Shown here piece by piece: positions 318 through 32,815 of a DNA stretch of 44,152 nucleotides. This stretch comes from an uncultured Spartobacteria bacterium (lineage in GTDB: Bacteria > Verrucomicrobiota > Verrucomicrobiia > Chthoniobacterales > Terrimicrobiaceae), in the NCBI GenBank assembly GCA_937890535.1, contig CALBXK010000185.1, forward strand, positions 1-44,152. Direction: 5' to 3'. The stretch's first letter is position 1. Each line of letters opens with the position of its first letter. Both the position numbers and the translations under genes were made by a program. The notes beneath the pieces were generated by a model. The model saw nothing but the letters and a program-made list of their open reading frames with translations. It had not been told where the DNA came from and ran no database searches.

Positions 318-1727
318 TTAGTTTAAGGTAAACACCTCGCGAGCGTCGCTGATGTTCCCGGTGATAGCGGCTGCGGCCACCATGAGGGGGCTCATGAGGA
401 TGGTGCGGCCGGTGGGGCTGCCTTGGCGGCCTTTGAAGTTTCGGTTGCTGGAACTGGCGCAAAGTTGATCTCCTACCAACTGGTCAGGGTTCATTCCGAG
501 GCACATCGAGCAACCGGCGCCTCGCCACTCAAAGCCCGCTTCGCGGAAGATTTCGGCCAGGCCCATTTTCTCTGCGATTTGGGAGACGCCCTGGGAGCCA
601 GGGACGACGATGGCCTTGACGCCGTTGTGGACCTTCCTGCCTTTGAGGTAGCGGGCGACTTCCGTGAGATCGCTGAGTCTTCCGTTGGTGCAGCTGCCGA
701 GGAATGCCACATCCACCTTGGTGCCTTTGATGGGTTGGCCGGCCTGCAGTTGCATGTGGACCAGAGCTTCTTCACCCGTGGCGCGATCCTTCGCCGGGAG
801 TTCATCCGCGGTCGGGATATTTTCATCGATGAAGATGGCTTGGCCTGGATTAATGCCCCAGGTCACGGTTGGGGCGATATCGGTCGCTTGATAGGTGATG
901 ACATCGTCATAGGCCGCATCGGGATCCGATGCGAAGGATTGCCAGCGTTTTACCGCCGCATCCCAATCCGCCTCTTTCGGGGCATAGGGGCGGCCTTTCA
1001 GATAATCGAAGGTGGTTTTGTCCGGATTGACGTATCCCACCCGGGCGCCGCCTTCGATGGACATGTTGCAGACCGTCATGCGCTCCTCCTGGGTGAAGGC
1101 ATCGAAGGTCGAGCCTCCATATTCATAGGCGTAACCGAGGCCTCCGTTCACTCCCAGCTTGCGGATGATGTGGAGAATGACGTCTTTGGCATAAACGCCG
1201 GGAGATAACTTTCCCTCAACGTTGATGCGGCGGACTTTCGGTTTGTGGATGGCCATGGTTTGGGTGGCCAAGACATCCCGGACCTGGCTGGTGCCAATGC
1301 CGAAGGCGATGGCCCCGAACGCGCCATGGGTGGAGGTGTGAGAATCCCCGCAGGCAATCGTCGTGCCTGGTTGGGTGATGCCCTGCTCGGGGCCGACAAT
1401 GTGGACGATCCCCTGCTTGCCGCTGGGGAGATCGAAAAAGGTGACGCCGGATTCTTCGCAGTTCTTGCGCAGAGCCTTGATCATTTCGTCGGCCAACGGG
1501 TCGGAGAAGGGTTCCTCCCGCTCGTCGGTGGGGACGATATGGTCCACGGTCGCAAAGGTCCTCTGGGGGTACAAGACCTTGAGGCCGAGATCCCGCAACA
1601 TGCCAAACGCCTGCGGGCTGGTGACCTCGTGAATGAGATGCGTCCCAATCAGGAGCTGGGTGGCCCCGTTGTCCAAGGTTCGTACGCTGTGGGCCTCCCA
1701 TACTTTGTCCAATAATGTCTTGCTCAT
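318..1727 (-). CDS. leuC: 3-isopropylmalate dehydratase large subunit
   Basis: [41 protein letters not shown]...[23 protein letters not shown]...SCTNGR; aconitase-family motifs. Confidence 0.97.
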
Positions 1728-1826
1728 GCTTTTGTAATCGTTTCGCCCCAAGGGAACGGAGAATCTTCGACGGAACGCGACCGGTGCGCAAGTTTCTTGT
1801 CAAACGGGCCGTCCTGAGCGACACTT

Positions 1827-2435
1827 TTGGGAACCCCAGATATGCATCCCATGCCTACCGAAAATTCGGACAACTGGTTTCTTAAGAAACACGAAAATGG
1901 AGAAGTCTTTGGCCCCGTGCCTCTGCAAAAGATTCGCGAATGGGCCCATTCCGCCCAAGTGAACTCCCAAGACATGTTGTCGAACGATAACGTGATTTGG
2001 ACCCAGGCTCCAATGATTGCCCAGATGGAGATGGACTGGCTGGTGGAGGTGAATGACCATCTGCTCTACGGACCGACGACGGCAGAGACCCTCCTGGAGT
2101 TTCATCAACTTGGTGAAATCTCGTCGGAGACGATCGTGCTCAATTGTTGCAGCGGGGAATCCTTACCTCTCGGCGAGGCGGCTTTCTATTCGGCGCCGGA
2201 ACGCGAGCCCGAGGAAGAAAAAATTCCGGCGAATCCGCTGATGAGGATGCTTGAACAATCTGGACGCGGGGGGGTGCGGGTGAACCTGCAGAACCGGGTC
2301 CGGGAGCTGGAGGTTGCCTTGTTGGACAAACGCCGCAAGCTCATGGCGGCGGAACACACTATCGTCGGTTTGGAGACGAAGATCAAAACGCTGGAGAGTC
2401 GAATCCGTGATATCAGCGGATTCCAGAAATCCTGA
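1827..2435 (+). CDS. GYF_2 (DUF4339)-like domain protein with C-terminal coiled coil
   Basis: NWFLKKHENGEVFGPVPLQKIREWAHSAQV resembles GYF_2; charged heptad-like C terminus. Confidence 0.6.
   Translation: MGTPDMHPMPTENSDNWFLKKHENGEVFGPVPLQKIREWAHSAQVNSQDMLSNDNVIWTQAPMIAQMEMDWLVEVNDHLLYGPTTAETLLEFHQLGEISSETIVLNCCSGESLPLGEAAFYSAPEREPEEEKIPANPLMRMLEQSGRGGVRVNLQNRVRELEVALLDKRRKLMAAEHTIVGLETKIKTLESRIRDISGFQKS
2323..2395 (+). repeat. 73-bp direct repeat copy 1 (inside 3' end of GYF_2 gene)
   Basis: tggacaaacgccgcaagctcatggcggcggaacac..atcgtcggtttggagacgaagatcaaaacgctgga; 71/73 identical to 3121-3193. Confidence 0.97.
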
Positions 2436-2459
2436 GCGATTGCTGGGCTGGGGACCTCG

Positions 2460-2708
2460 GTGGCCAGATTGCAGTGGCCAGGCGGGACTGCCCCCGAAAC
2501 TGCGGAAAGCATCCTTGAGCGCTTGGGTGTGAGCCCCACTGAAGCGATCAGGATGTTCTACACACAGATCACATTGAGAAATGGACTCCCTTTCGACGTC
2601 GCGATACCAAACTCAGTAACTCAGCAGGCGCTTAAGGACTCGAGAAGTGGACGCAATCTCACCTCGCATGAGAATGTTGAGGCGCTTTTTGAAAGCTGGG
2701 ACAAGTGA
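2460..2708 (+). CDS. RelB/DinJ-family antitoxin, N terminus possibly truncated
   Basis: AESILERLGVSPTEAIRMFYTQITLRNGLPFDV is DinJ-like; GTG start; usual N-terminal RHH strand not recognisable. Confidence 0.75.
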   Translation: MARLQWPGGTAPETAESILERLGVSPTEAIRMFYTQITLRNGLPFDVAIPNSVTQQALKDSRSGRNLTSHENVEALFESWDK

Positions 2709-2977
2709 AGGCAATCTACGAGACCAGTCAATTTCGGAAGGACATCAAAAAATTACAAAAGCAAGGAAAGGATATTGGAAAACTGAAAGATGTGGTCAAG
2801 CAGATTGCCAACGATCAGCGACTCGAGGACAGATATCGGGATCATGCACTGATCGGCCCTTGGCGAGGATCGCGGGATTGCCATATTGAACCCGACGGGT
2901 TGCTCATCTACCGGATAGATGATGGCTCTCTTTATCTTGAGCGGAGTGGCAGCCACAGCGGCTTATTTAAAAAGTAA
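2705..2977 (+). CDS. YafQ-family type II mRNA interferase toxin
   Basis: YETSQFRKDIKKLQKQGKDIGKL...DHALIGPWRGSRDCHIEPDGLLIYRIDDGSLYLERSGSHSGLF; overlaps the upstream antitoxin ORF by 4 bp. Confidence 0.88.
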   Translation: MKAIYETSQFRKDIKKLQKQGKDIGKLKDVVKQIANDQRLEDRYRDHALIGPWRGSRDCHIEPDGLLIYRIDDGSLYLERSGSHSGLFKK

Positions 2978-3120
2978 ATTCCCAACCAAGCGATCGACCG
3001 CCACCGCTGTCACTGTGGGTGCTGGGCTCCGCCGCACCCGGCGTGCCAGCGGTTCCGGGCAGGTCATCGCGGACGGGAAAGAGAAGTTTTGACATCGTGT
3101 TGCGTTTGCAACCCACTTGA

Positions 3121-3193
3121 TGGACAAACGCCGCAAGCTCATGGCGGCGGAACACGCCATCGTCGGTTTGGAGACGAAGATCAAAACGCTGGA
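3121..3193 (+). repeat. 73-bp direct repeat copy 2 (orphan tail of GYF_2 gene)
   Basis: 71/73 identical to 2323-2395. Confidence 0.97.
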
Positions 3194-4794: not shown

Positions 4795-5531
4795 GGTCGG
4801 GTTTCGATCCGGCAGGAAATGCGGCGGCGGAAGAACCAGAGTAACCCCAGCATGTCGGCCAGGGGGCGCCACAAAAACGCGCCCAATCCATATTTCGACG
4901 TACCCCGTGTCCGGGCCCGGTGGGTCACCTCAACTTGTTTGATTCGATAACCGGCATTCACCGCCATCGCGGCCATGAAGGAATACATGGTGCGAATGGG
5001 CAAAAATGACCCGACGACCTCACTTCGAAAAGCCTTCAGGGTGCAGCCTGTGTCGCGGATGCCATCGCCCAAAATTTTCGAGCGCACCGCATTGGCAAAT
5101 CGGGACATGGCCAGTCGCAGCCGAGAATCCTGCCGGTTGGCCCGGACGCCCGCCACCATGTCAACACCCTCCAGGGCGTCCAGAAGGCGGGGAATGTCGT
5201 GGGGGTTGTTCTGCCCGTCTCCATCCAGTGTGACAATGGTCCCGCCCAGGCAGAGCTGCAATCCGTGATAAAGCGCGGCGGCCTGGCCTTGATTGGTCAA
5301 AAAATGCACGGCTCTCACGGCAGGCCATTCCCGGGCCCAGCGATCAATCTCCTCCGCGGTGGCATCCGTGCTTCCATCATTGACCAGCACAACCTCGGCG
5401 GAATCCCGCAGGCCTTGGCAAACCTCGCGGAGTTCCTCCAGCAACGGGCGGACGTTGTTTTCCTCGTTGTAGAAGGGAATAACGATCGAGAGGCTGGCGG
5501 ATGAACCGTCGGGCGGTCGAGGTGGAGTCAT
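4791..5531 (-). CDS. Glycosyltransferase family 2 (dolichol-phosphate mannosyltransferase-like)
   Basis: LSIVIPFYNEENNVRPLLEEL...VLVNDGSTDATAEEI...VTLDGDGQNNPHDIPRLLDAL. Confidence 0.92.
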   Translation of the reverse strand: MTPPRPPDGSSASLSIVIPFYNEENNVRPLLEELREVCQGLRDSAEVVLVNDGSTDATAEEIDRWAREWPAVRAVHFLTNQGQAAALYHGLQLCLGGTIVTLDGDGQNNPHDIPRLLDALEGVDMVAGVRANRQDSRLRLAMSRFANAVRSKILGDGIRDTGCTLKAFRSEVVGSFLPIRTMYSFMAAMAVNAGYRIKQVEVTHRARTRGTSKYGLGAFLWRPLADMLGLLWFFRRRISCRIETRP

Positions 5532-5556
5532 GAAAGAAGCGGCACTCCGTCGATCT

Positions 5557-5784
5557 TAGCAGACTGTTGAAAAACCCCGAAACGAAAAATATGATCGAAG
5601 AATGAGGAAAAGAATACATCAGAGCTGAAGTAAGGACCGGGATGACCCTAACGGGCTGCGGCCCTTTTGTGGCCGGGTGGCGTTGCGGCTCGGTCGCGGG
5701 GTGCACCCCGCTCGCTCACCGCGCCTGACCCGCCCCCAAAATGACTCGCAGTTTTTCATTCCGCTCTTTTTCAACAGTCTGCTA
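5557..5784. mobile_element. MITE-like 228-bp non-coding element with 18-bp perfect terminal inverted repeats
   Basis: TAGCAGACTGTTGAAAAA (5557-5574) and TTTTTCAACAGTCTGCTA (5767-5784); terminal TA on both sides. Confidence 0.75.
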
Positions 5785-5830
5785 GGGGACTGCAGACCCG
5801 GAGGCAAGTCGGCCATCCATTCAGGTTCTG

Positions 5831-6565
5831 CTAGGTCGAGTGAATAACGGCATCGGGCTTGAAATTTTTGAGAAAATCGGTGCCGGTCTCCTTTTTGATC
5901 TCGATCAAGGCACCAAGTTCGTAAAATACCGGAAAATCAAAGACGACATCTGTTCTTTTAGGCGGATGCTGGTCGGGATCGTAATCGTGTTGATTCCTCG
6001 GAGCAACCAAGGGCAACACTTGAGGACAGGAACTATTTTGAATTCGTTTCTTGCCAACAATCTGGAACCCCTCGATTTTCTTTTCTTCCAATAGCCTGGC
6101 TAAAATCAAATACAGCTCAAGGGATGTCATTCGATTGGGATGACCACTCCAGTCCGACCAGTACAATTTAAGGCCATGCGCCATCAGCGAAGGATCGGCA
6201 TCGAAGAACGGTTGTTTCAAAAATACGAAGTCCTTTGAGACTGCACACGCCTTTTGCAAGAAACGTTCAACGGCTCGCTGTGTATCAAGGTGTTCCAGAA
6301 TATGAAATAATATTGTAAAATTGACCAAAGGTTCTTCTGGCAAATCCAATATATCGAAATCCGATACCAAATGATTTTGTTTTGCGGTCTCCAATTTTGC
6401 CGCGCTAATGTCGAACCCCATCCCTTTCGATCCATTAAAAAAATATGTTCTGACGGATTCGATGCTTCCACCGTTGCTGCAACCGAAATCGAAAAATTGC
6501 ACGTCATGTTCCTTCACGACATTCGCAATCCCTTTCGCTTTCGCTTCCTCTCGGGTGATTAGCAT
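5831..6565 (-). CDS. Class I SAM-dependent methyltransferase-like protein
   Basis: VQFFDFGCSNGGSIESV...GMGFDISAAKLETAKQNHLVSDFDILDLP...ILFHILEHLD; start taken at ATG 6565 (longer ORF overlaps neighbour). Confidence 0.7.
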   Translation of the reverse strand: MLITREEAKAKGIANVVKEHDVQFFDFGCSNGGSIESVRTYFFNGSKGMGFDISAAKLETAKQNHLVSDFDILDLPEEPLVNFTILFHILEHLDTQRAVERFLQKACAVSKDFVFLKQPFFDADPSLMAHGLKLYWSDWSGHPNRMTSLELYLILARLLEEKKIEGFQIVGKKRIQNSSCPQVLPLVAPRNQHDYDPDQHPPKRTDVVFDFPVFYELGALIEIKKETGTDFLKNFKPDAVIHST

Positions 6566-6626
6566 CGAATACGATTTCCTTAAAACTGAAGATGGGATTC
6601 GGCCCCAGGGAAATTCATCGTATTTC

Positions 6627-8117
6627 TCAGGGCGATTTAAGATTCTCTGCGGCGGGGATGCCGTATTCCTGCATGAGGCGGTCACGACCGGATTCTGCCG
6701 CAGCGGCATCGAGCATGATGAAACCCGGATCCTCCTCGAAGGTGATCTTGTGAAATCCGTCCACTGGAGTCGCCACAGCACGGGCGATGTCGTCGAGGCT
6801 CTTGATTGTAACACCATTGACGCTTTTGACGACTCCTGGCGAAACGTTGCCGAAGCCGAGGGTATCCGGAGAGGGAAGAACCTGGCTAAGAAAGACAACC
6901 TTCCCGGTGTCCGGCGGAAGTTCCTCCTGATAGGCGTCGAGATAGACGAGGCGTTGCGGGGCTTCCTCCTTCCAGCGTGCCCCCCATTCCTGAAGATAGG
7001 GACGGGAAAGCTCCTGAAAAACCAAACCCCCGAGGATGAAATATCGGGGCTGGGTGTCGAAGATGTGAGAGGCGCTCACGGAGGCCGGGGAGGCGTCGGC
7101 GTCGAGGGTGACGGGAAGCGATTTTTCGATGCCGTCACGTTGAATCTTGAAGGTGAGGGTGTCGCCCAGATGAGAACGCGTGCTGATGAGATGGGAGAAG
7201 GAGATTTTTCCAAATTCAGGATCCTCAAAGTTGCCGTCCTGATCGATGGGCTGGTCGTTGAGCGCCAGGATGATATCTCCTTTGCGGAGTCCGGCCCGGT
7301 CGGCAGCGGCCCCGGGAGAGACGTGCGTGACATAGACGCCCCCGTCTTTTTTCAGCTTGATGTAGCGTCGAAACTGGGGATCGCGGGTGGGAGAAAATGC
7401 CACGCCAGCGCGCGGAAAGCCAGGGTCTGATTTGCCTTTCGCATCCTCAAGAAAATGCTGAATGACGGGGGCGGGAATCAGGTTGGCCGTCTGGGTGCGG
7501 GTGTCGTAGCGCATGAGGAGACCGAGGAGGCGTCCCTTGCGCACGGCGGGCATGGTGAAGCTTCCGTCCCGGTTTTCCAGGGGCGTACTTAGCCGGTAGG
7601 TCAGCAAGCCCAGATGATCCAGCGGATAGCGAGTGATGGTGATGGTGCTGATCGTGGCCAAGGTTTCGGCGATGCGGCCATTGGATTCCAACTGAAGGAT
7701 CATGGCCTGGTCTCCCACCCGGGCTCCGGAGTCGAGACGGAGGGCCGGTACGGAGCTGAGAAATTCAGGATCTGTCGGCTGAAGAAGGGCGAGGTTGCTG
7801 TCGTAATCCACCGCCACAACTGTGGCCGGCGTTTTTTCTGCGGTGCCTGATTTTTCCAACTCAACGTAGGTGTGGTTGGCGACAAGCTCGGCGGTGACGA
7901 GAACCTGGCCGTTCTCTACCACCGGACCGAGGCCGCGGTGCATGACGGATGGTTTCTTTGCCCAGGGCCGGAAAAAATCGAACGCCTGAGAGGTGGCGTA
8001 TACGCGGACGAGGGATTCGCTGCCAATGTCTCCGGGGGAGCTGTTGCGGGGCGAGAGGGTGGCTCCCGCCAGGACGGGCGCAGCGGAAAGGATGAGGATG
8101 GCGAGAATCGATTTCAT
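6627..8117 (-). CDS. HtrA/DegP-like PDZ protein, catalytic residues lost (pseudoprotease)
   Basis: Signal peptide; trypsin-fold-like segment with TAELVA and YDSNLALL in place of TNAHVV and HDCDLALL, no GNSGGP; PDZ GGVYVTHVSPGAAADRAGLRKGDIILALND. Confidence 0.75.
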   Translation of the reverse strand: MKSILAILILSAAPVLAGATLSPRNSSPGDIGSESLVRVYATSQAFDFFRPWAKKPSVMHRGLGPVVENGQVLVTAELVANHTYVELEKSGTAEKTPATVVAVDYDSNLALLQPTDPEFLSSVPALRLDSGARVGDQAMILQLESNGRIAETLATISTITITRYPLDHLGLLTYRLSTPLENRDGSFTMPAVRKGRLLGLLMRYDTRTQTANLIPAPVIQHFLEDAKGKSDPGFPRAGVAFSPTRDPQFRRYIKLKKDGGVYVTHVSPGAAADRAGLRKGDIILALNDQPIDQDGNFEDPEFGKISFSHLISTRSHLGDTLTFKIQRDGIEKSLPVTLDADASPASVSASHIFDTQPRYFILGGLVFQELSRPYLQEWGARWKEEAPQRLVYLDAYQEELPPDTGKVVFLSQVLPSPDTLGFGNVSPGVVKSVNGVTIKSLDDIARAVATPVDGFHKITFEEDPGFIMLDAAAAESGRDRLMQEYGIPAAENLKSP

Positions 8118-24461: not shown

Positions 24462-24536
24462 GGTGCCTTCGTCTAGGGGTTAGGACACGGCCCTCTCACG
24501 GCCGGTGCACGGGTTCGAATCCCGTAGGCACTGCCA
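24462..24536 (+). tRNA. tRNA-Glu(CTC), CCA encoded
   Basis: ggtgccttcgtctaggggttaggacacggccctctcacggccggtgcacgggttcgaatcccgtaggcactgcca; acceptor ggtgcct/aggcact, anticodon loop CTCTCAC. Confidence 0.97.
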
Positions 24537-24542
24537 GATTTT
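24506..24542 (+). repeat. attL: 37-bp core repeat overlapping tRNA 3' end
   Basis: tgcacgggttcgaatcccgtaggcactgccagatttt identical to 32779-32815. Confidence 0.96.
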
Positions 24543-24642
24543 TCAGCGGTGAAATCACCTTCTAACGCACATAGATAAAGGGTTTGCGGGGTTTCTGGCT
24601 TTTCTTCCATTTTTGCAGTTCGCCCCCGTTTTTGGCGGAAAG

Positions 24643-24661
24643 TTTGTCACATTTTGTCACA
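24643..24661 (+). promoter_or_regulatory. Candidate integrase arm-type sites, left end
   Basis: tttgtcaca t tttgtcaca, 10-bp repeat period; the TTGTCACA core recurs at the right end. Confidence 0.6.
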
Positions 24662-24795
24662 GGGATCGCCATTCCCCTTGACTCCCACTCCCGGCAAGCG
24701 TAGTCCTCACCTGTCCGTTGCTAGAACAGCGGGCCGCCAATTCTCACCCTCGGATTAATCACCCGAACGGCGAAAACATGAAAAACGAGAAAAGT

Positions 24796-24867
24796 AGCCC
24801 GCTTCCAGATAGTTCCGGTGTGATAGCCGGGGCGAAAGGTTCTAGCCTTCTGGGAGTGGGCTTTTTT
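24796..24867 (+). ncRNA. Candidate structured leader RNA/attenuator upstream of the 24873 ORF
   Basis: agcccgcttccaga/tctgggagtgggct 14-bp stem (two G-U), 39-nt loop, then tttttt, ending just before ATG 24873. Confidence 0.5.
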
Positions 24868-24872
24868 GTATC

Positions 24873-25328
24873 ATGAAGACATTAGAGAAAAGCAATCGGG
24901 CCAGCAAATCGAGCGGCAGAATCGTCACGAAACAATTCAAATTCGCCACTGACATCGTCAAGATGGCGGAAGAGTTGGCAGAGATGCGCGGCCAGACCGT
25001 GAATGAGGTCATCACGGATGCGCTACGGGCGAAGGTCGATGAGAAATCGCGCTCCGTCACGTTGACCCCTGAGAACGCACGACGGGCGCGGGAAGTCGCG
25101 GACCTGTTGGAAATCGGCTTCGAGGATTACGCAAACAGCGTCTTGGAGGAGTTCCTTGACGACGTTTATGGTGGTCGCGTCGGAGAGGTGGAAGGTTGCA
25201 GTCGGACGTTCGATAGCCGGGCGGAGGCGGAAAGGATTGTCCGTCGCATTGATAAATTCGACGAGGTCACCGATCGGCGATGGGTCATTGAGGAAAAAGC
25301 GCCGGGCGTGTTCTGCGCGGATTACTAG
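24873..25328 (+). CDS. Hypothetical protein with two RHH-like segments
   Basis: TKQFKFATDIVKMAEELAEMRGQTVNEVITDALRAKV and SVTLTPENARRAREVADLLEIGFEDYANSVLEEFLDDV; followed by a strong terminator. Confidence 0.75.
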   Translation: MKTLEKSNRASKSSGRIVTKQFKFATDIVKMAEELAEMRGQTVNEVITDALRAKVDEKSRSVTLTPENARRAREVADLLEIGFEDYANSVLEEFLDDVYGGRVGEVEGCSRTFDSRAEAERIVRRIDKFDEVTDRRWVIEEKAPGVFCADY

Positions 25329-25344
25329 AGCAACCCGAAACCAG

Positions 25345-25379
25345 AAAACCCCGCCCGGCGAAATGCTTGGCGGGGTTTT
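25345..25379 (+). terminator. Rho-independent terminator
   Basis: aaaaccccgcc cggcgaaatgctt ggcggggtttt, then t. Confidence 0.88.
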
Positions 25380-25659
25380 TCGTGCCCTCGATTATCGGGC
25401 GAGGGTTTGCCCTTGCTCTCGAATAAAACCCACTCCTCGGGCATCGTCGCGCAAGATTTGACGGAGAAAATCCGGCTCGAGCCTGTGACCAGATGGTGAT
25501 CGCATAACGGGGCTTGAAACCTTTGGTTCCTTGCCTTTCGCTTCGGCAATTGCGGCGTGGGTTTCCCGGCGTGTCATGCTCTGGGCGGATTCGTTCCCAC
25601 AACTAAAACCGCCATTGCGACGGTGAAAATTCCAAGCTGAAGAAGTTGTCGCGACATTG

Positions 25660-25727
25660 AAAAAAAGGTGCGCCCCGACTGGCTGAATTTCTCGAGGTGT
25701 GTGAACTTTTGAGACCAGTCGGGGCGC
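25660..25727 (-). terminator. Terminator at end of island minus-strand operon
   Basis: 13-bp perfect stem gcgccccgactgg (25670-25682)/ccagtcggggcgc (25715-25727), 32-nt loop; on the minus strand followed by acc then a T tract. Confidence 0.7.
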
Positions 25728-25773
25728 GGTTTTATCCGGTGCGTGCTTGGCAGCGTTTGCGCACCGGGAAATG

Positions 25774-26217
25774 TTACAGGGCGGCGAGTGCTTCGCGGGC
25801 CTTAACGACTGCGGGGTCGTTCTGGGCTTTTTCCTCGGCGGCAGCAAGTGCGGCGGCAAGGCGTTGGCGTTTCTCTTCGGCGGCAAGCTCGGCAGCGAGT
25901 TCGTCGGCCTTTGCTTTGGCAATGGCATCGCGGAGAGGCTGAATCAGCTTCACGGCGGCCTTGTAGCGGTCGGTGGCTTCGAGGTGATCCAAGGCGAGAA
26001 TCATTCCGCCAACTTTCGCGGCGTGTTCGATTCGTGCGACGGAAATGTCGGGGTAACATTCTGCCGACATCTGAAGTTCAATCTTCGCTTTGTCGGCCTG
26101 GGCGCGGAGAGCGTCCACTGAATCGCAAAGATTGCGAAGGGAGCAATCAGCGTTGTCGAGTTTGTTCTGGGCGGTTTCGAGTGGTGTCATAATCTTAGTC
26201 TTGGATTTTTCCGCCAT
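25774..26217 (-). CDS. Island hypothetical protein, coiled-coil/Ala-rich
   Basis: MAEKSKTKIMTPLETAQNKLDNADCSLRNLCDSVDALRAQADKAKIELQ...; start chosen at ATG 26217. Confidence 0.65.
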   Translation of the reverse strand: MAEKSKTKIMTPLETAQNKLDNADCSLRNLCDSVDALRAQADKAKIELQMSAECYPDISVARIEHAAKVGGMILALDHLEATDRYKAAVKLIQPLRDAIAKAKADELAAELAAEEKRQRLAAALAAAEEKAQNDPAVVKAREALAAL

Positions 26218-26773
26218 TTTTGATGAAAGCCATTTTCGCGGCGGGGTCGAAAAAGGTGTTGAACTGTGCATAGCTGACGACTTTCGCTCCGGGCGATGGC
26301 TTGGATGCCTTGACGGGAGCGGGCTGTGGGTCAACGACCTGTCCACCCATCGCGCAAAACTTGCGTTTCTGGATCATGTCGAGTTCCGAAAACTCCTCAC
26401 GGGTGCAGGTTGGACGCTCAAGGCCAAGGCGAGCGGCAACCGACTGTTGAAGTCCGGCAATAAGTGGTTCCCTCACTTCTTTGCGCGGATCGGTTGCGAG
26501 CGCGGCAACCGTGCTTCCAAGGCTTTGAAGGTTCGCGGCGGTGGCGGGCTTGGGAACCGGAGATGGTGCGGCAGGCTTCACGGCGGCGGCAGGCAACCGT
26601 TTGTCGGCCTGCTCAATAATGCGGGCCTCGAGAAGGCTTGTTACTTTTTGCGGCAAGTCTCCAAAGCAAATTTGTTTGTTAAGCGGAAGGGCTTCAAAGC
26701 GCGCCGTCACGGATGACAGTTTTGCTCTTGCGGATTCCAGTTGTTCACGGAGGGGGATGGTAGGATTACTCAT
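26195..26773 (-). CDS. Island hypothetical protein with two FxxL/F...K..F...GG...D motifs
   Basis: EEFSELDMIQKRKFCAMGGQVVD and AQFNTFFDPAAKMAFIKNGGKIQD; overlaps the upstream gene by 4 bp. Confidence 0.7.
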   Translation of the reverse strand: MSNPTIPLREQLESARAKLSSVTARFEALPLNKQICFGDLPQKVTSLLEARIIEQADKRLPAAAVKPAAPSPVPKPATAANLQSLGSTVAALATDPRKEVREPLIAGLQQSVAARLGLERPTCTREEFSELDMIQKRKFCAMGGQVVDPQPAPVKASKPSPGAKVVSYAQFNTFFDPAAKMAFIKNGGKIQD

Positions 26774-27126
26774 TTGTTACTAAGCCGTTTCCCGCGTCGT
26801 TTCTTCGTAACCTGCTTAAATTCACCGCTTTGAATCCCGCGCAAAAAGTCCCTGCCCTCAGCTATTGCCCGATTGATTCGATCCTCGGAAATATGGTGAT
26901 CGCGGCCAATGTGGGCTTGGCACCTATCGTCTAAGCGTAGGAGCTTGGCGACAATCGCCAGTCGTGCGGGATCTGCCCCGGCCCACAACGTCACCGTGAT
27001 GAAGCGGGACGCCATGAGGCGGGCATCCAGGGGGATGGGAGCGGGTTCCTGCTCGGGCGGATCGTCAAAGAAGATGTCGGCTTCCTCTATTTCGGTGATG
27101 GTTCCGGCGTCGTCAAAATAGCTCAT
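26770..27126 (-). CDS. Island hypothetical protein
   Basis: 118 aa, overlaps both neighbours by 4 bp. Confidence 0.65.
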   Translation of the reverse strand: MSYFDDAGTITEIEEADIFFDDPPEQEPAPIPLDARLMASRFITVTLWAGADPARLAIVAKLLRLDDRCQAHIGRDHHISEDRINRAIAEGRDFLRGIQSGEFKQVTKKRRGKRLSNK

Positions 27127-27305
27127 TTCTTCACCTCCCGTTGAAGCTTACTGGCCTCTTCCCAGAAACGAGCATTCGCCTCTTCCTGTGCGGGCAGGTC
27201 GCCAGACTCTCGGGCCTTGCGGCAAGCCTCCTCGAAGGGTGCCATCCGTTTGTGAAACTCTTCAAATCCTTGAATGAGTCCACGAGCAACATAGTTCGGT
27301 TTCAT
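27123..27305 (-). CDS. Island small hypothetical protein (60 aa)
   Basis: MKPNYVARGLIQGFEEFHKRMAPFEEACRKARESGDLPAQEEANARFWEEASKLQREVKK; overlaps both neighbours by 4 bp. Confidence 0.65.
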   Translation of the reverse strand: MKPNYVARGLIQGFEEFHKRMAPFEEACRKARESGDLPAQEEANARFWEEASKLQREVKK

Positions 27306-27979
27306 TGTGCTTCCTCCGAGGAACTAAGTCCCAAGCTCGCCACCATGGCCTTGACTGCTTTCAGTTGCTCCGGTGTTCCTGCCTGTCCCTCGGCATGATT
27401 GGCCAAGGTCCACGATGCCGACACAAGGGCGTTGTGCCTTGCGGTTTCCTCAGCGCCCGGTCCCTTCGGAAAGCACGTGTCGCCCTCTTCCAAGACTTCA
27501 CGAACGCTTTGCACGATCTTGTTGTCTCCGAGGTAAAGAAGTGTCCCGAGGGCGGAATAATAGCCTCCACTTGCTAGGGCGTGAAACTCCTTTCCAAATT
27601 TCTGCCAGTCTGCGCCGATCTGGATGGCGAGCCGTTGCGATTGCATATCGAGGGCAACTGATGCAGCTCTCAAAAAACAGCGAATCCCTTCCTTCATTTT
27701 GGAAACCGGGATTGTCTCCTCCTCGCCAGAGCGGAGCCGTTGAAGTTCAATTTCGCCCTTTTCGCAAATCTGACGTTGGCGTTGGATTTTGAGGTTTAAG
27801 AGGACTTCGGTTTGTCCGGTGGCCTCTGCGGCCTCCTTGGCGAGTTGCTGCGCCCTACGACGGGAACAGGCGAGCCGTTTCTGTATCTGCGAAACGTCCT
27901 CGCTCGGTTTCGGGCCAGGTTTATTTCGACGTTTGGCTTTGGTGGCATCTTGCTTTTTGGGTGGGGTGGGGTGGTGCAT
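27302..27979 (-). CDS. Terminase small subunit-like (Nu1-type-like) protein
   Basis: Basic N terminus with HTH-like segment, then LLNLKIQRQRQICEKGEIELQRLRSGEEETIPVSKMKEGIRCFLRAASVALDMQSQRLA, reminiscent of TerS proteins. Confidence 0.5.
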   Translation of the reverse strand: MHHPTPPKKQDATKAKRRNKPGPKPSEDVSQIQKRLACSRRRAQQLAKEAAEATGQTEVLLNLKIQRQRQICEKGEIELQRLRSGEEETIPVSKMKEGIRCFLRAASVALDMQSQRLAIQIGADWQKFGKEFHALASGGYYSALGTLLYLGDNKIVQSVREVLEEGDTCFPKGPGAEETARHNALVSASWTLANHAEGQAGTPEQLKAVKAMVASLGLSSSEEAQ

Positions 27980-27983
27980 AAAG

Positions 27984-28163
27984 TTAATTAATTGCGAAAT
28001 TGATTTTGTTTGTTGCGCGCGTGAGATTCAGCTGCTGTCGCTGGAACCTAACCTGTGAAAGGGTTTCTAGGACTCTCTTACCCCGGCGGGTGGTCTGGTC
28101 ACTAATGCGAGAACCTGCCCGCAATTGCGCGAGAATGGCTGTGGATTGGTTTTGTTTATTCAT
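27984..28163 (-). CDS. Small HTH-like protein (59 aa)
   Basis: MNKQNQSTAILAQLRAGSRISDQTTRRGKRVLETLSQVRFQRQQLNLTRATNKINFAIN; ATG overlaps the PriCT-2 gene stop. Confidence 0.5.
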   Translation of the reverse strand: MNKQNQSTAILAQLRAGSRISDQTTRRGKRVLETLSQVRFQRQQLNLTRATNKINFAIN

Positions 28164-28719
28164 TTGATGCTTTGCCTTGGTATGTTCCTTTGAACGCCTT
28201 GAGCAGGTGCGCGGCAAATACTGCTTCGGGATCGTCTGCACCTTTGATGTGTCCGTCTGCCTGCATCCGTCGCAACTCTCCAGCGATGCGCCTTGCCTCA
28301 TGCCTGTCTGTGTCTGGCATTGGGTGTGGCAGTGTTGGCTCCGCTGGTAGCCTGGACCGCAACCAGCTGGGCATAGGTGCGCGCTTGATGGCTGCAACCT
28401 CTTGTGATGTTAGCCCGACTGCCTTAGTGGGCTGTGCTTTCGCTTTAGCCCCGTTGCCCTTCCAGCCATGCGCCTTTGCAATGTGAGGGAGAGTGGCACC
28501 TGTTACTTGCATAAGCCTGCCCCGATATTTGTTCGCATATTCTCCCGCCCGCTGTTCAGGACTCCATGCGTTTAATATCTGGCAAGCGCGGTCGAGCGGA
28601 AGGATGGCAAAGACTGAAGAGCAGACCCGCAACCAAAGTTCATATTCTGGCCTTGGGGGAATGCATGAGAGCATATTTGCAATGTCTGATTCTGTGAAAG
28701 TGTGAGTAGCAGTGTTCAT
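28156..28719 (-). CDS. PriCT-2 (primase C-terminal 2)-like replication protein
   Basis: DIANMLSCIPPRPEYELWLRVCSSVFAILPLDRACQILNAWSPEQRAGEYANKYRGRLMQVTGATLPHIAKAHGW. Confidence 0.75.
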   Translation of the reverse strand: MNTATHTFTESDIANMLSCIPPRPEYELWLRVCSSVFAILPLDRACQILNAWSPEQRAGEYANKYRGRLMQVTGATLPHIAKAHGWKGNGAKAKAQPTKAVGLTSQEVAAIKRAPMPSWLRSRLPAEPTLPHPMPDTDRHEARRIAGELRRMQADGHIKGADDPEAVFAAHLLKAFKGTYQGKASNE

Positions 28720-28734
28720 GGTGTATTTCTGAGG

Positions 28735-28856
28735 AGGAGGGGTAGGGGGTAGGGGTAACCCTATATATAGGGGTTACCCCTTACCCCCTCTTCCCCTCCA
28801 AAGGGTAAAGGGGTAAAAGAGGGGTAATTTACCCCCTTACCCCCTTACCCCTTGTT
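28735..28856. repeat. GGGGTAA/TTACCCC repeat cluster, candidate replication origin
   Basis: Multiple ggggtaa and ttacccc units in both orientations around ggggtaaccctatatataggggttacccc, between the two replication genes. Confidence 0.6.
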
Positions 28857-30456
28857 GATATGTTCCGTCGTCATTTTTGCTGATGATTCCAAGACCCTTC
28901 ATGTCTCGATATCGGTTCCGGGCGGTATCACTTGAACACCCTTCCTCACTCGCAATCCGGGCCAGTAAGTCGGTATAGTTCGCTGGGGTTGTCAGGACTT
29001 TGGAGGCGAGGTCTTGCAAGGACGCCTTCTTCCCTGCCTCTTTGATGCGTGCCCGCTCTGCGGTTGGATCTCCACAAGTTACATGCATCCCTTGTGCGGT
29101 GTCGTACTTGAAGTTGTGGGCCTCAGATTGGGGCCAGTAACCATCCCGCAAGGGAGCGCCGTAGACAGAACTGATTTCATCCTTCCCTTTGGTGACGACG
29201 AGCGCCCCCTGCATCTTCCGGTGCAGTTGGGAACCATAGTGCCCCCGCGTTTTCCCGTATTCGGTGCCGGGGTTCTCATGCAGGACGATCACGACCAAAC
29301 AGTCATGCTGAATGGCAAACCGAAATTGACGGTCCACCAGTTCATTTGCCATCGCTTCATCGTTCAAGGTGGCGAGGAAGTCGGCCCCACCGTCGAAGAT
29401 CACGCATCGGATTTTTGATTCCTTTGCCACGGTCTCGGCGGCAGTTTCCACCAGTGCCCACCGTTCCGCCAAGGGGACAGCGAGAAGGGTGAATGAAGCT
29501 AAGTCTCCCGGCACCTCTGCCAATCCTGCCCGCTTTTGGACGGTTGTTTGCATGAGGCGGAAATGATTCTTCGGCCCTTGCTCGCAATCGAAATGCAGGA
29601 CAAAACCGTCGGCAGGTGGTGCGACAAATCCCAAGCAGTCGGAGCCGCTATCGGGATCTGAAATAAACGACGCCATGATTCCAGAAACGACGCCAGTCTT
29701 TCCGCTCTTCATTTGGCCTTGAATGACGACAAGGTTGCCCCTCTCGCCTATGACGTCGCCACGGTCATTTGTGAGCACTGGCGGCTCTTCTGGTGGCGGG
29801 GACGCAAGCCCTTTGAAAAGCGCGGCTCCCACCATCTCTTGCCTCCGGGCCATCATCGCCTCCTCGTCTGTGAGAGGTTGCCAGTTGGCGACGTCTAACG
29901 GGACAGCATCAAGGTTTAGGTGGGCATCGGGGTCATGGGACACAAAGCAGAGTCGGGAAACGTCTTTGCCTGATTGGTCCAAGGTAAGCCCATGTACATC
30001 TTTGAAGTATCGTTCCGCCGCCTTGAATGCCTCCAAGTGTCCGGTGCCATCTCCAGCGATAGGGGCGCGGATCGCGGCCTTTACGCCTTTCCCGGACGGA
30101 CTGAGGAAAGCAAGGATGACATGGGGGTCGGAGACCAATTTGCCAATTACCTCTTGAACCTGCCCCTCTGGCAGTTTGTCGATATCCACGGTGAGCACCC
30201 CTGAATGCTCCTCCAGCGACTCTGAATCCCGCTTCGAGAAGGTGCCCGACATCGTGACGGCGGGTAGAGTGCGTTTGAGTTTGTCGAAATCCGCTTTTCG
30301 TCCGGCTGCCAGGCACTCTTGAGCCTGTCGCACCTTGTCTATGATCTCGGGCCTTGGGGAGCGGATAGCGCCCACGAATTGAGAGATGGTGATGGTCTTC
30401 CCGCAAGCTGGATCTGTCACCTTGGGGAACGTACTGATTTGGGGGTCTGTGCTCAC
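28837..30456 (-). CDS. Primase/helicase-like replication protein (BT4734/VirE_N-like N terminus plus RecA-like AAA_25 ATPase)
   Basis: LEEHSGVLTVDIDKLPEGQVQEVIGKLVSDPHVILAFLSPSGKGVKAAIRA; GNLVVIQGQMKSGKTGVVSGIMASF Walker A; IRCVIFDGGADF Walker B-like. GTG start. Confidence 0.8.
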   Translation of the reverse strand: MSTDPQISTFPKVTDPACGKTITISQFVGAIRSPRPEIIDKVRQAQECLAAGRKADFDKLKRTLPAVTMSGTFSKRDSESLEEHSGVLTVDIDKLPEGQVQEVIGKLVSDPHVILAFLSPSGKGVKAAIRAPIAGDGTGHLEAFKAAERYFKDVHGLTLDQSGKDVSRLCFVSHDPDAHLNLDAVPLDVANWQPLTDEEAMMARRQEMVGAALFKGLASPPPEEPPVLTNDRGDVIGERGNLVVIQGQMKSGKTGVVSGIMASFISDPDSGSDCLGFVAPPADGFVLHFDCEQGPKNHFRLMQTTVQKRAGLAEVPGDLASFTLLAVPLAERWALVETAAETVAKESKIRCVIFDGGADFLATLNDEAMANELVDRQFRFAIQHDCLVVIVLHENPGTEYGKTRGHYGSQLHRKMQGALVVTKGKDEISSVYGAPLRDGYWPQSEAHNFKYDTAQGMHVTCGDPTAERARIKEAGKKASLQDLASKVLTTPANYTDLLARIASEEGCSSDTARNRYRDMKGLGIISKNDDGTYQQGVRG

Positions 30457-30629
30457 AGTTTCCCCTTTCTCAATGCATCGGCATCGGCTTGGCGGACCCG
30501 CTCGGCAAAGTCGCTGGCCTTGACATGCCCTGTTAATTGAGAGGTTCTCTCGAAACTTGTATCAGAGTTGTGGGCGCATTCTTTGCCGGGTGCGCCCGCT
30601 CTGTTTTTAGGCGGGGAGAGGTCTTTCAT
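30453..30629 (-). CDS. Small island protein (58 aa)
   Basis: Manual translation MKDLSPPKNRAGAPGKECAHNSDTSFERTSQLTGHVKASDFAERVRQADADALRKGKL*; overlaps both neighbours by 4 bp. Below ORF-track cutoff. Confidence 0.55.
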   Translation of the reverse strand: MKDLSPPKNRAGAPGKECAHNSDTSFERTSQLTGHVKASDFAERVRQADADALRKGKL

Positions 30630-30943
30630 TGGAGAACCTCCTGCAAGGATGCTGTGCGAAGCTTTTCAAGGGCGCTGAAAACCTCGGACTTCCGAAAAAG
30701 GCGATGTTTGCCGATTTTGAAAGACGGGATGAGTCCTTGCTGTGCGTATTGGTGAAAAGACCGAACCGGGATATTCACGATTGCTGCCATTTGTGGCGCA
30801 TGATGAAGTTCCGGCTCTGGCATTGGGGGGGGGATCTTCTTTGTCCGTTCCTTCTTTGCCGTTTCCGGCGTTTCGTTTAGTTCCGGCTCAATTGCCGATG
30901 GGGTAGCGTTAATTGCGGTCATACGCTGTTGGGGCAGTGTCAA
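30626..30943 (-). CDS. Excisionase/AlpA-like HTH protein
   Basis: HHAPQMAAIVNIPVRSFHQYAQQGLIPSFKIGKHRLFRKSEVFSALEKLR resembles HTH_17 excisionase. Confidence 0.75.
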   Translation of the reverse strand: MTLPQQRMTAINATPSAIEPELNETPETAKKERTKKIPPPMPEPELHHAPQMAAIVNIPVRSFHQYAQQGLIPSFKIGKHRLFRKSEVFSALEKLRTASLQEVLQ

Positions 30944-30972
30944 CTTGACGAATCTGATGCAGTTGTTTACGT

Positions 30973-31497
30973 TTGACGTTTATGAAGCTGCTTTCCCTTG
31001 GTGATATTTCAAAACTGACTGGATACAGTCGGGCCTCGATTCACAATTACGCGGTGGCGGATAGGATTCCCGGTGATCCCGTCACCCGACCGCCGGGCAA
31101 GCAATTCCGCTATGCCGATACGGAAAAACTTCGTGACTGGTGTAGTCTTCGAAAAGAAATTAGGGTATCAGCCCTGCCACGGAAAGGGGCGTCGGGTTCT
31201 CATTCTGCCAGAGTTCTCAGAACCTACAAAAAGGGAATGGACATCTTGAACGGAGATGATTTTGACCCTGACGACCTAAAGTTGGCCGGATGCATTCTTG
31301 ACGCAGCGGCCCCCCTTCTTTTCGAATTTCAGGACGGGCCTTCCCCGGTGGCGCGCGGGGTTTTGGCGGCGTTATCGCATCACCTCTTACTCAATAGAGC
31401 AATCAAGCGGGATGAGGAAGCGGCGATGAAAATCATTGATGCCTTCTATTCGGTTCAGCAGGGGATTGCGCACAAACTCAAGCACTCAGAGGTCTAA
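30973..31497 (+). CDS. MerR-like HTH regulator, divergent from replication operon
   Basis: MKLLSLGDISKLTGYSRASIHNYAVADRIPGDPVTRPPGKQFRYADTEKLRDW. Confidence 0.7.
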   Translation: MTFMKLLSLGDISKLTGYSRASIHNYAVADRIPGDPVTRPPGKQFRYADTEKLRDWCSLRKEIRVSALPRKGASGSHSARVLRTYKKGMDILNGDDFDPDDLKLAGCILDAAAPLLFEFQDGPSPVARGVLAALSHHLLLNRAIKRDEEAAMKIIDAFYSVQQGIAHKLKHSEV

Positions 31498-32719
31498 TTG
31501 AAAACCATTCCTCGGCCTGCGCTGGCGCCACAAGCGCGCGGTAGTTCTCCGTGATTATGCGCGGGCTGTTTCCTGCCTCCATTGCCACTTGCGCGACGTT
31601 TTGAACGGCGGCAACCCGGTAGGACACAAAAGAGTGTCGAAGTCCATTTCTCACGAATAGTAGGTCGGGGTTCGTCATTGCAGCTTTTGAGGCACGGAGC
31701 AAAACGGAATCATGGGAATATTGAGGGACAACCGGGCCGGATGATTTCGCGATGTTGGCCAACCATTCTTTCAGAGCGGGGACAATAGGGACGATGCGCC
31801 GGGCGGCTGTCTTGGCGATCCTCGCGCCAATGATGATGTGGCCAGTCGAAAGATTTACGTCTTTCCAATCTAGGCGATGAATTTCCGCCGTTCTCAGTCC
31901 GGCAAACCCTCCAATGGCCACAAGTGGCAAAAACTCTGGTGAGGTCGCTTCGAGGAGGGTGCGGAATTGCTGCGGTGTATATATTCCAATCTCGCCGCCG
32001 GGTTCGGTGGCGGTTTTCACCTTCTCGGCCTCGGTGCGGGCACCCTCTGGCAAGTATCCCTTGTCTTTCGCAAATGCGAAAACGGTTCGGAGCATGGCGC
32101 AATAATTGTTTCGAGTGCGTCCTTTCACTTTAATTGACGTGAGCCAGGCAGAAATATCGGCAGCCTTGATTGATTCAACAGGTGTCTTGAATGCCTTTCT
32201 TGGTCGGGAGAGGCGACTTGAACAGTCCTCAATATATCGGGCGGAACGTCCAAGGGATTCGATTTCTTCCAAAAACTCAGAGACGACGCGAGGGAAGGGC
32301 ACGTTCCTTTCTCCTTTTTGGTTTGCGAGGAAGTCGACGTAATGTTGCACGGCGATGACGATAGAGCCCCGGCCATCCAATATTTTTTGGGCCTCGGCAT
32401 ATTCTCGGGCCACTGTTGAGAGAGGAACCCCGACACCTTTTAGAACTTCCACGGCATCGGCCACCACTGCGGTTTGCCTGGGGGTGAGGGTGCCAACGTG
32501 GGCGGCTCCACTGGTGAGAGTCTTAATCTTCGCCTTGGCTGTCTTGCGGGCCTCCTCAATCGTTGAAGCCCTTTCCCTGATGCGCTTCCCGTCAGCGTAA
32601 TAGGCGAGCATATAACCCGACTTTCCGAAAGCGTTTGCTCGATAGATTGGGATTTTAACGCCGTTGGATTCGACTACCTCAACCGGGCCTCTTTTTGTGC
32701 TTTGGGATGGCTTTTTCAT
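31478..32719 (-). CDS. Tyrosine recombinase / phage integrase
   Basis: FAGLRTAEIHRLDWKDVNLSTGHIII...LRHSFVSYRVA...ENYRALV; R, HxxR, Y catalytic pattern; adjacent to attR. Start at ATG 32719 (track uses TTG 32725). Confidence 0.93.
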   Translation of the reverse strand: MKKPSQSTKRGPVEVVESNGVKIPIYRANAFGKSGYMLAYYADGKRIRERASTIEEARKTAKAKIKTLTSGAAHVGTLTPRQTAVVADAVEVLKGVGVPLSTVAREYAEAQKILDGRGSIVIAVQHYVDFLANQKGERNVPFPRVVSEFLEEIESLGRSARYIEDCSSRLSRPRKAFKTPVESIKAADISAWLTSIKVKGRTRNNYCAMLRTVFAFAKDKGYLPEGARTEAEKVKTATEPGGEIGIYTPQQFRTLLEATSPEFLPLVAIGGFAGLRTAEIHRLDWKDVNLSTGHIIIGARIAKTAARRIVPIVPALKEWLANIAKSSGPVVPQYSHDSVLLRASKAAMTNPDLLFVRNGLRHSFVSYRVAAVQNVAQVAMEAGNSPRIITENYRALVAPAQAEEWFSIRPLSA

Positions 32720-32726
32720 GGCCAAC

Positions 32727-32747
32727 TTGTCACAGAATTGTCACAGA
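32727..32747 (+). promoter_or_regulatory. Candidate integrase arm-type sites, right end
   Basis: ttgtcacaga a ttgtcacaga, 11-bp repeat period, same core and orientation as left end; immediately upstream of int. Confidence 0.6.
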
Positions 32748-32778
32748 GAGTCAATTCTAGAGTTCTTCCTAGGTAAAT

Positions 32779-32815
32779 TGCACGGGTTCGAATCCCGTAG
32801 GCACTGCCAGATTTT
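32779..32815 (+). repeat. attR: 37-bp partial tRNA-Glu repeat
   Basis: tgcacgggttcgaatcccgtaggcactgccagatttt. Confidence 0.96.

Follow-up and report, generated by a model that had tools for sequence, protein, structure and literature searches.

An array of repeated words at the 3′ end of a primase-helicase gene

The 44,152-nucleotide stretch of verrucomicrobial DNA analysed here (the window) carries a dense cluster of GGGGTAA/TTACCCC repeats, raising the question of whether this cluster is an origin of replication and, if so, for what kind of replicon. The initial annotation, made from the letters alone, described such a cluster in both orientations around an AT core, overlapping the stop codon of a primase-helicase gene and lying between two replication genes, and all of this was recovered with a shift of a few bases, as the string that it quoted starts at 28731, not 28735, and ends at 28851. 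Exact GGGGTAA heptamers occur at 28752, 28810 and 28821 and exact TTACCCC heptamers at 28774, 28781, 28829, 28837 and 28845, with imperfect GGGGTA copies at 28739 and 28746. Eight of the 11 exact copies in the whole window are found within ~120 bp, while the densest 122-bp stretch in Markov-simulated windows with the dinucleotide make-up of the window (n=200) held at most two. The cluster is genuine and much denser than chance would give.

Inverted repeats surround the AT core, a 14-mer that occurs only once in the genome. On the minus (coding) strand, the array runs through three words in forward orientation, three in reverse and two more in forward orientation up to the core CCCCTATATATAGGG, beyond which come one reverse word and two imperfect reverse words. 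The array fills the 117-bp spacer between the primase-helicase gene (rep) and a PriCT-like gene, and starts within the rep stop codon (28837-28839), which falls inside a repeat. Its parts are as follows.

28733..28851, unstranded: putative replication origin (symmetric word array plus core); 8 words against at most 2 in simulated windows
28739..28758, plus strand: inner word set on one side of the core, two imperfect GGGGTA and one GGGGTAA
28759..28772, unstranded: palindromic AT core CCCTATATATAGGG, presumed melting site; identical in the sibling element L003
28774..28787, minus strand: inner word set on the opposite side of the core, TTACCCC twice
28803..28851, unstranded: outer inverted word set, GGGTAA three times facing TTACCC three times; overlaps the rep stop codon, order same in the sibling

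An integrative element with a replication module

A perfect 37-bp direct repeat bounds the ~8.3 kb (24506-32815) in which the array resides, and the 3′ end of a tRNA-Glu gene (24462-24536) contains its left copy. This context was absent from the initial annotation. The element encodes the following features.

24506..24542, plus strand: attachment repeat in the 3′ end of tRNA-Glu, 37-bp perfect direct repeat
28156..28719, minus strand: PriCT-like primase-associated protein, next gene past the array (phrog_2597 DNA primase, E=0.015)
28837..30456, minus strand: initiator gene rep, BT4734-like primase domain, AAA_25 RecA-fold helicase and winged helix (PF08800, E=4e-28; PF13481, E=5e-7)
28840..29067, minus strand: C-terminal winged-helix domain of Rep, proposed word reader (structure models, Foldseek)
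30626..30943, minus strand: AlpA-like excisionase/regulator (HTH_17; phrog_66)
30973..31497, plus strand: putative helix-turn-helix regulator, divergent (weak matches only)
31478..32725, minus strand: tyrosine integrase (PF00589, phrog_1)
32779..32815, plus strand: second attachment repeat, 37-bp perfect direct repeat

The attachment repeats, integrase, AlpA-like gene, primase-helicase and PriCT-like gene together mark the locus as a small integrative element equipped with a replication module. The gene set of phage-inducible chromosomal islands (PICIs), known from Gram-positive and Gram-negative bacteria, comprises int, pri-rep and ori, in the Gram-negative islands an AlpA-type gene as well, and in some cases terS (PMC6092414). 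Int, an AlpA-type regulator, pri-rep, a candidate ori and a specific attachment site are all present in the window element, and no terS was recognised there. Judged by its gene content, this is a verrucomicrobial integrative element bounded by attachment sites, with a PICI-like layout; our searches of the open-access literature turned up no account of satellites of this kind in Verrucomicrobiota. At the left end of the element, 24873-25328 encodes a ribbon-helix-helix type protein (PSK_trans_fac/RHH), a possible antitoxin or regulator.

A sibling element with the same layout and a different word

A sibling element (L003) was identified in a Chthoniobacter flavus MAG (Verrucomicrobiota) of the same genus as the window. 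Its rep is 71% identical to the window rep and is followed by the equivalent spacer, although the sibling adjoins a tRNA-Arg and the window element a tRNA-Glu. The core CCCCTATATATAGGG is identical in both, the word order is the same, and the alignment is 83% identical. The words themselves have changed: GGGTAA/TTACCC occurs nine times in the window and never in the sibling, whereas GGGCAA/TTGCCC occurs nine times in the sibling and never in the window, with at least seven words at matching positions sharing the identical T to C change. As direct and inverted copies have all switched, this fits a protein that reads the sequence; base pairing alone would not impose it. Conservation of the spacer in related elements, which the initial annotation proposed as a check, thus holds for the architecture and core and does not hold for the letters of the words.

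Three further observations concern the sibling. The match of its PriCT-like gene to PriCT_2 (E=0.003) is below the Pfam cut-off. Between that gene and the tRNA-Arg lies a terS-like gene (1946-2383; phrog_4102, E=1.5e-13), which suggests packaging by a helper phage. The sibling rep is split at about residue 235 between contig ends (starts of L003 and L018; contigs C9 and C35 of G079), perhaps reflecting excised or variant copies that coexist.

Private words beside related helicases

The equivalent layout was found at the 3′ flanks of related helicase genes in Verrucomicrobiota and on viral contigs, with a word that differs by locus: CACCTC (L008), CGTGTC (L009), ACCCCG (L141), ACCGCC (L232), GGATCA (L234), ACGCCC (L235), CGGTAAA (L067), CACTTTAA (L079/L151) and more, and TGGTTTA, TGGTATA and TGGTGCA at three related viral-contig helicases. 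In the verrucomicrobial set, the top word was repeated 6-10 times in its own array at 10 of 15 loci (p=0.003 each, the smallest value this test allows), and a locus's top word averaged ~0.1 occurrences in the arrays of other loci; the arrays of L006, L007 and L237 were not significant by this word test. A class-wide search added six verrucomicrobial homologs, a count that leaves out L236 as a weak partial match, and five of the six had a significant array (p=0.005 each, again the test floor) with words that all differed. Word sharing between the two arms of a locus, with the core set only by the first AT hexamer and the arms of other loci as the comparison, totalled 393 over 33 loci, against a permutation mean of 58 (sd 22, maximum 221 in 100,000 permutations). 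The window array had no DNA match among phage and plasmid records, as expected if words are private.

The array keeps its place 3′ of rep irrespective of the next gene, which is PriCT in the window and sibling, a BT4734/PriCT primase in L084 and, in L142, a succinyl-CoA ligase-like gene, identified by eye, that appears chromosomal. The order in L084 (3510-5876) is helicase, array, BT4734/PriCT primase, and that in the window is BT4734-helicase, array, PriCT; judged by these gene orders, the array is at the module joint of a split primase-helicase.

A single-protein search of viral contigs returned no relatives, and the relatives came through alignment-based searches. Scanning viral contigs for the core ACCCCTATATATAGGG gave 37 matches, most of them in unrelated surroundings where no word array is present; the core by itself is therefore not diagnostic. 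The exceptions, L021, L022, L028 and L038, lie near helicase genes and have their own words. L022 has the core at 1216 with repeated GAAACAC words, downstream of a DUF5906/VapE-like helicase (1326-3179), and the array layout may therefore cross helicase superfamilies. In L028 (4908, 5010-5453 and 5426-7639), a Toprim/AAA_25 helicase gene is followed by a PDDEXK gene, and the core with its ACTGTGGAG words comes after both, such that a nuclease gene lies between helicase and array.

Arrays accompany a C-terminal extension of the initiator

The window Rep has 539 residues, and its structure model (mean pLDDT 91.6) contains a RecA core resembling Rad51, Twinkle, DnaB and KaiC and a C-terminal helix-helix-helix-strand-strand unit. 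Modelled alone (pLDDT 82), this unit gave Foldseek matches to MarR/IclR/SmtB/DtxR winged helices at weak E-values of 0.005-0.02; a PDB sequence search with the helicase profile returned no match. Archaeo-eukaryotic primases include BT4734-like proteins and are known to partner with RecA helicases of the RepA type (PMC5862659). The predicted C-terminal winged helix is the proposed reader of the GGGGTAA word.

Among helicase homologs, the residues that follow the GHxG[ST] motif fall into two clear sizes, at most 97 or at least 132. Significant arrays were detected beside 24 of 56 long-class helicases, which carry the C-terminal extension, and beside none of 28 short-class helicases (Fisher p=7.5e-6; gene-internal control, 2/56), the former figure not being a prevalence, as one of the search profiles (A2) derived from helicases already known to have arrays. 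The Bacteroides primase-helicases L065, L066 and L068 have the extension and no array at the rep 3′ flank. In pairs with different words the C-terminal domain evolves faster than the AAA domain, as in window and sibling (AAA 75%, C-terminal domain 55% identity), and the same-word pair L061/L141 shows the reverse (AAA 56%, C-terminal domain 67%). L160 and L164, however, have a common word and a C-terminal domain identity of only 48%. That divergence of the domain tracks change of the word is, on this mixed sequence record, only suggestive.

Alternative explanations of the array

Of the other roles that the array could serve, that of an operator or promoter, at which the initiator or another element protein would bind the words and regulate the PriCT-like gene or its own operon, survives best. 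The genes on either side of the array run in the same direction, palindromic words would be apt for a dimeric regulator, and the repeats of iteron plasmids commonly double as origin and operator. Nevertheless, no promoter-like or terminator-like site was found within the array, two mirrored sets around a TATA core are rare for operators, and the array tracks the 3′ end of the helicase gene and not a particular downstream gene, including where that gene appears chromosomal. A purely regulatory role is opposed by these observations and we consider it unlikely.

A signal in single strands, either a priming-site hairpin or an mRNA stem-loop, has in its favour the unusually stable folding of the array in single-stranded DNA (-42.9 kcal/mol, z=-4.2). 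Any inverted word array folds strongly, though, and the direct copies agree as well, while pairing alone would not force one spelling on them. With no Rfam family and no terminator in the array, this explanation appears less likely still. A G-quadruplex, which the initial annotation had also entertained, would account for the runs of 4-5 G in window and sibling but fails as a general principle, since many relatives of the same layout have words that lack G runs (TGGTTTA, CACTTTAA, CGGTAAA and GGATCA); it is very improbable here. Equally improbable is neutral low-complexity expansion by slippage, to which short G-rich repeats can be subject, as core, word order and mirrored layout are kept between siblings while all words change together, and the array recurs beside related helicases.

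A probable self-addressed replication origin

The array is thus quite likely to be the autonomous-replication origin of an excisable integrative element. The iteron-type origin of the initial annotation gains support from the layout and position kept in the sibling, the concerted change of words and the restriction of arrays to C-terminally extended helicases. From the computed anatomy of the array, its conservation, the privacy of the words and the link with the C-terminal domain, we infer that Rep binds, melts, loads and primes in the following manner. Integrase- and AlpA-dependent excision of the element would come first. Rep, a presumed hexameric helicase, would then bind the GGGGTAA words through its winged helix, so that an assembly forms on either side of the TATATATA core, and the inverted arrangement of the words would point the two helicases towards one another. 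Once the AT core had melted, the two helicases would load in opposite directions, and the fused primase domain and the neighbouring PriCT protein would prime both forks.

In PICIs the origin comes directly after rep on its 3′ side, invariably with an AT-rich region between two sets of iterons, and such a region drives plasmid replication; in 2018 this mirrored-iteron origin was described as exclusive to PICIs, "shared by ... no other known bacterial replicon" (PMC6092414). As in SaPIs and PICIs, the window array is immediately 3′ of the primase/initiator gene, as are those of its relatives, and a terS-like gene occurs in the sibling. The differences are an initiator that combines, judged by domain content, a BT4734-like primase domain with a RecA-fold AAA_25 helicase; other host phyla; a core that is a short GC-clamped TATA palindrome; and no known helper phage. 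By analogy, the array is best read as a SaPI/PICI-type origin that serves a RecA-fold helicase and occurs in other lineages.

In SCCmec, the Cch2 helicase uses its C-terminal domain to bind direct repeats that lie just past the end of the gene encoding it (PMC7581432). The position of an initiator helicase's repeats is alike in the two systems, but SCCmec has another helicase and primase and three short direct iterons, unmirrored and with no TATA palindrome. RSF1010/IncQ plasmids combine a RecA-fold hexameric helicase, RepA, with an oriV that contains iterons. The iterons are bound by a separate RepC, whereas in the window reader and helicase are apparently one polypeptide. The alpha protein of P4 is a satellite's primase-helicase-initiator fusion that recognises repeats, although in P4 ori and crr are distinct sites and alpha comes from a different helicase family. 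P4 has itself been compared with PICIs (PMC6092414). A PICI-like layout with a different helicase family, in Verrucomicrobiota elements and on viral contigs, suggests convergence or module exchange.

While this kind of origin was already known, what is new here is a PICI-like origin with another initiator family and the pattern of private words. Searches of the open-access literature turned up no paper on this type of origin in Verrucomicrobiota or with AAA_25/BT4734 initiators, which is weak evidence because open-access papers alone were covered. Our broader proposition, which we hold at slightly better than even, is that self-addressed origins cross lineages, with RecA-fold and winged-helix initiators using private words of 6-9 bp around a GC-clamped TATA palindrome, and with word and reader drifting together. 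As layout and core stay constant through this drift, every element would be its own incompatibility group. With the origin word next to its presumed reader, the initiator's reading code and plasmid-like compatibility become testable from sequence and, if the proposition is true, the winged-helix code would be learnable from natural helicase-word pairs. The layout also gives a simple rule for locating replication origins across the thousands of elements yet to be studied, and it supplies candidate replicons in phyla where genetic tools are scarce.
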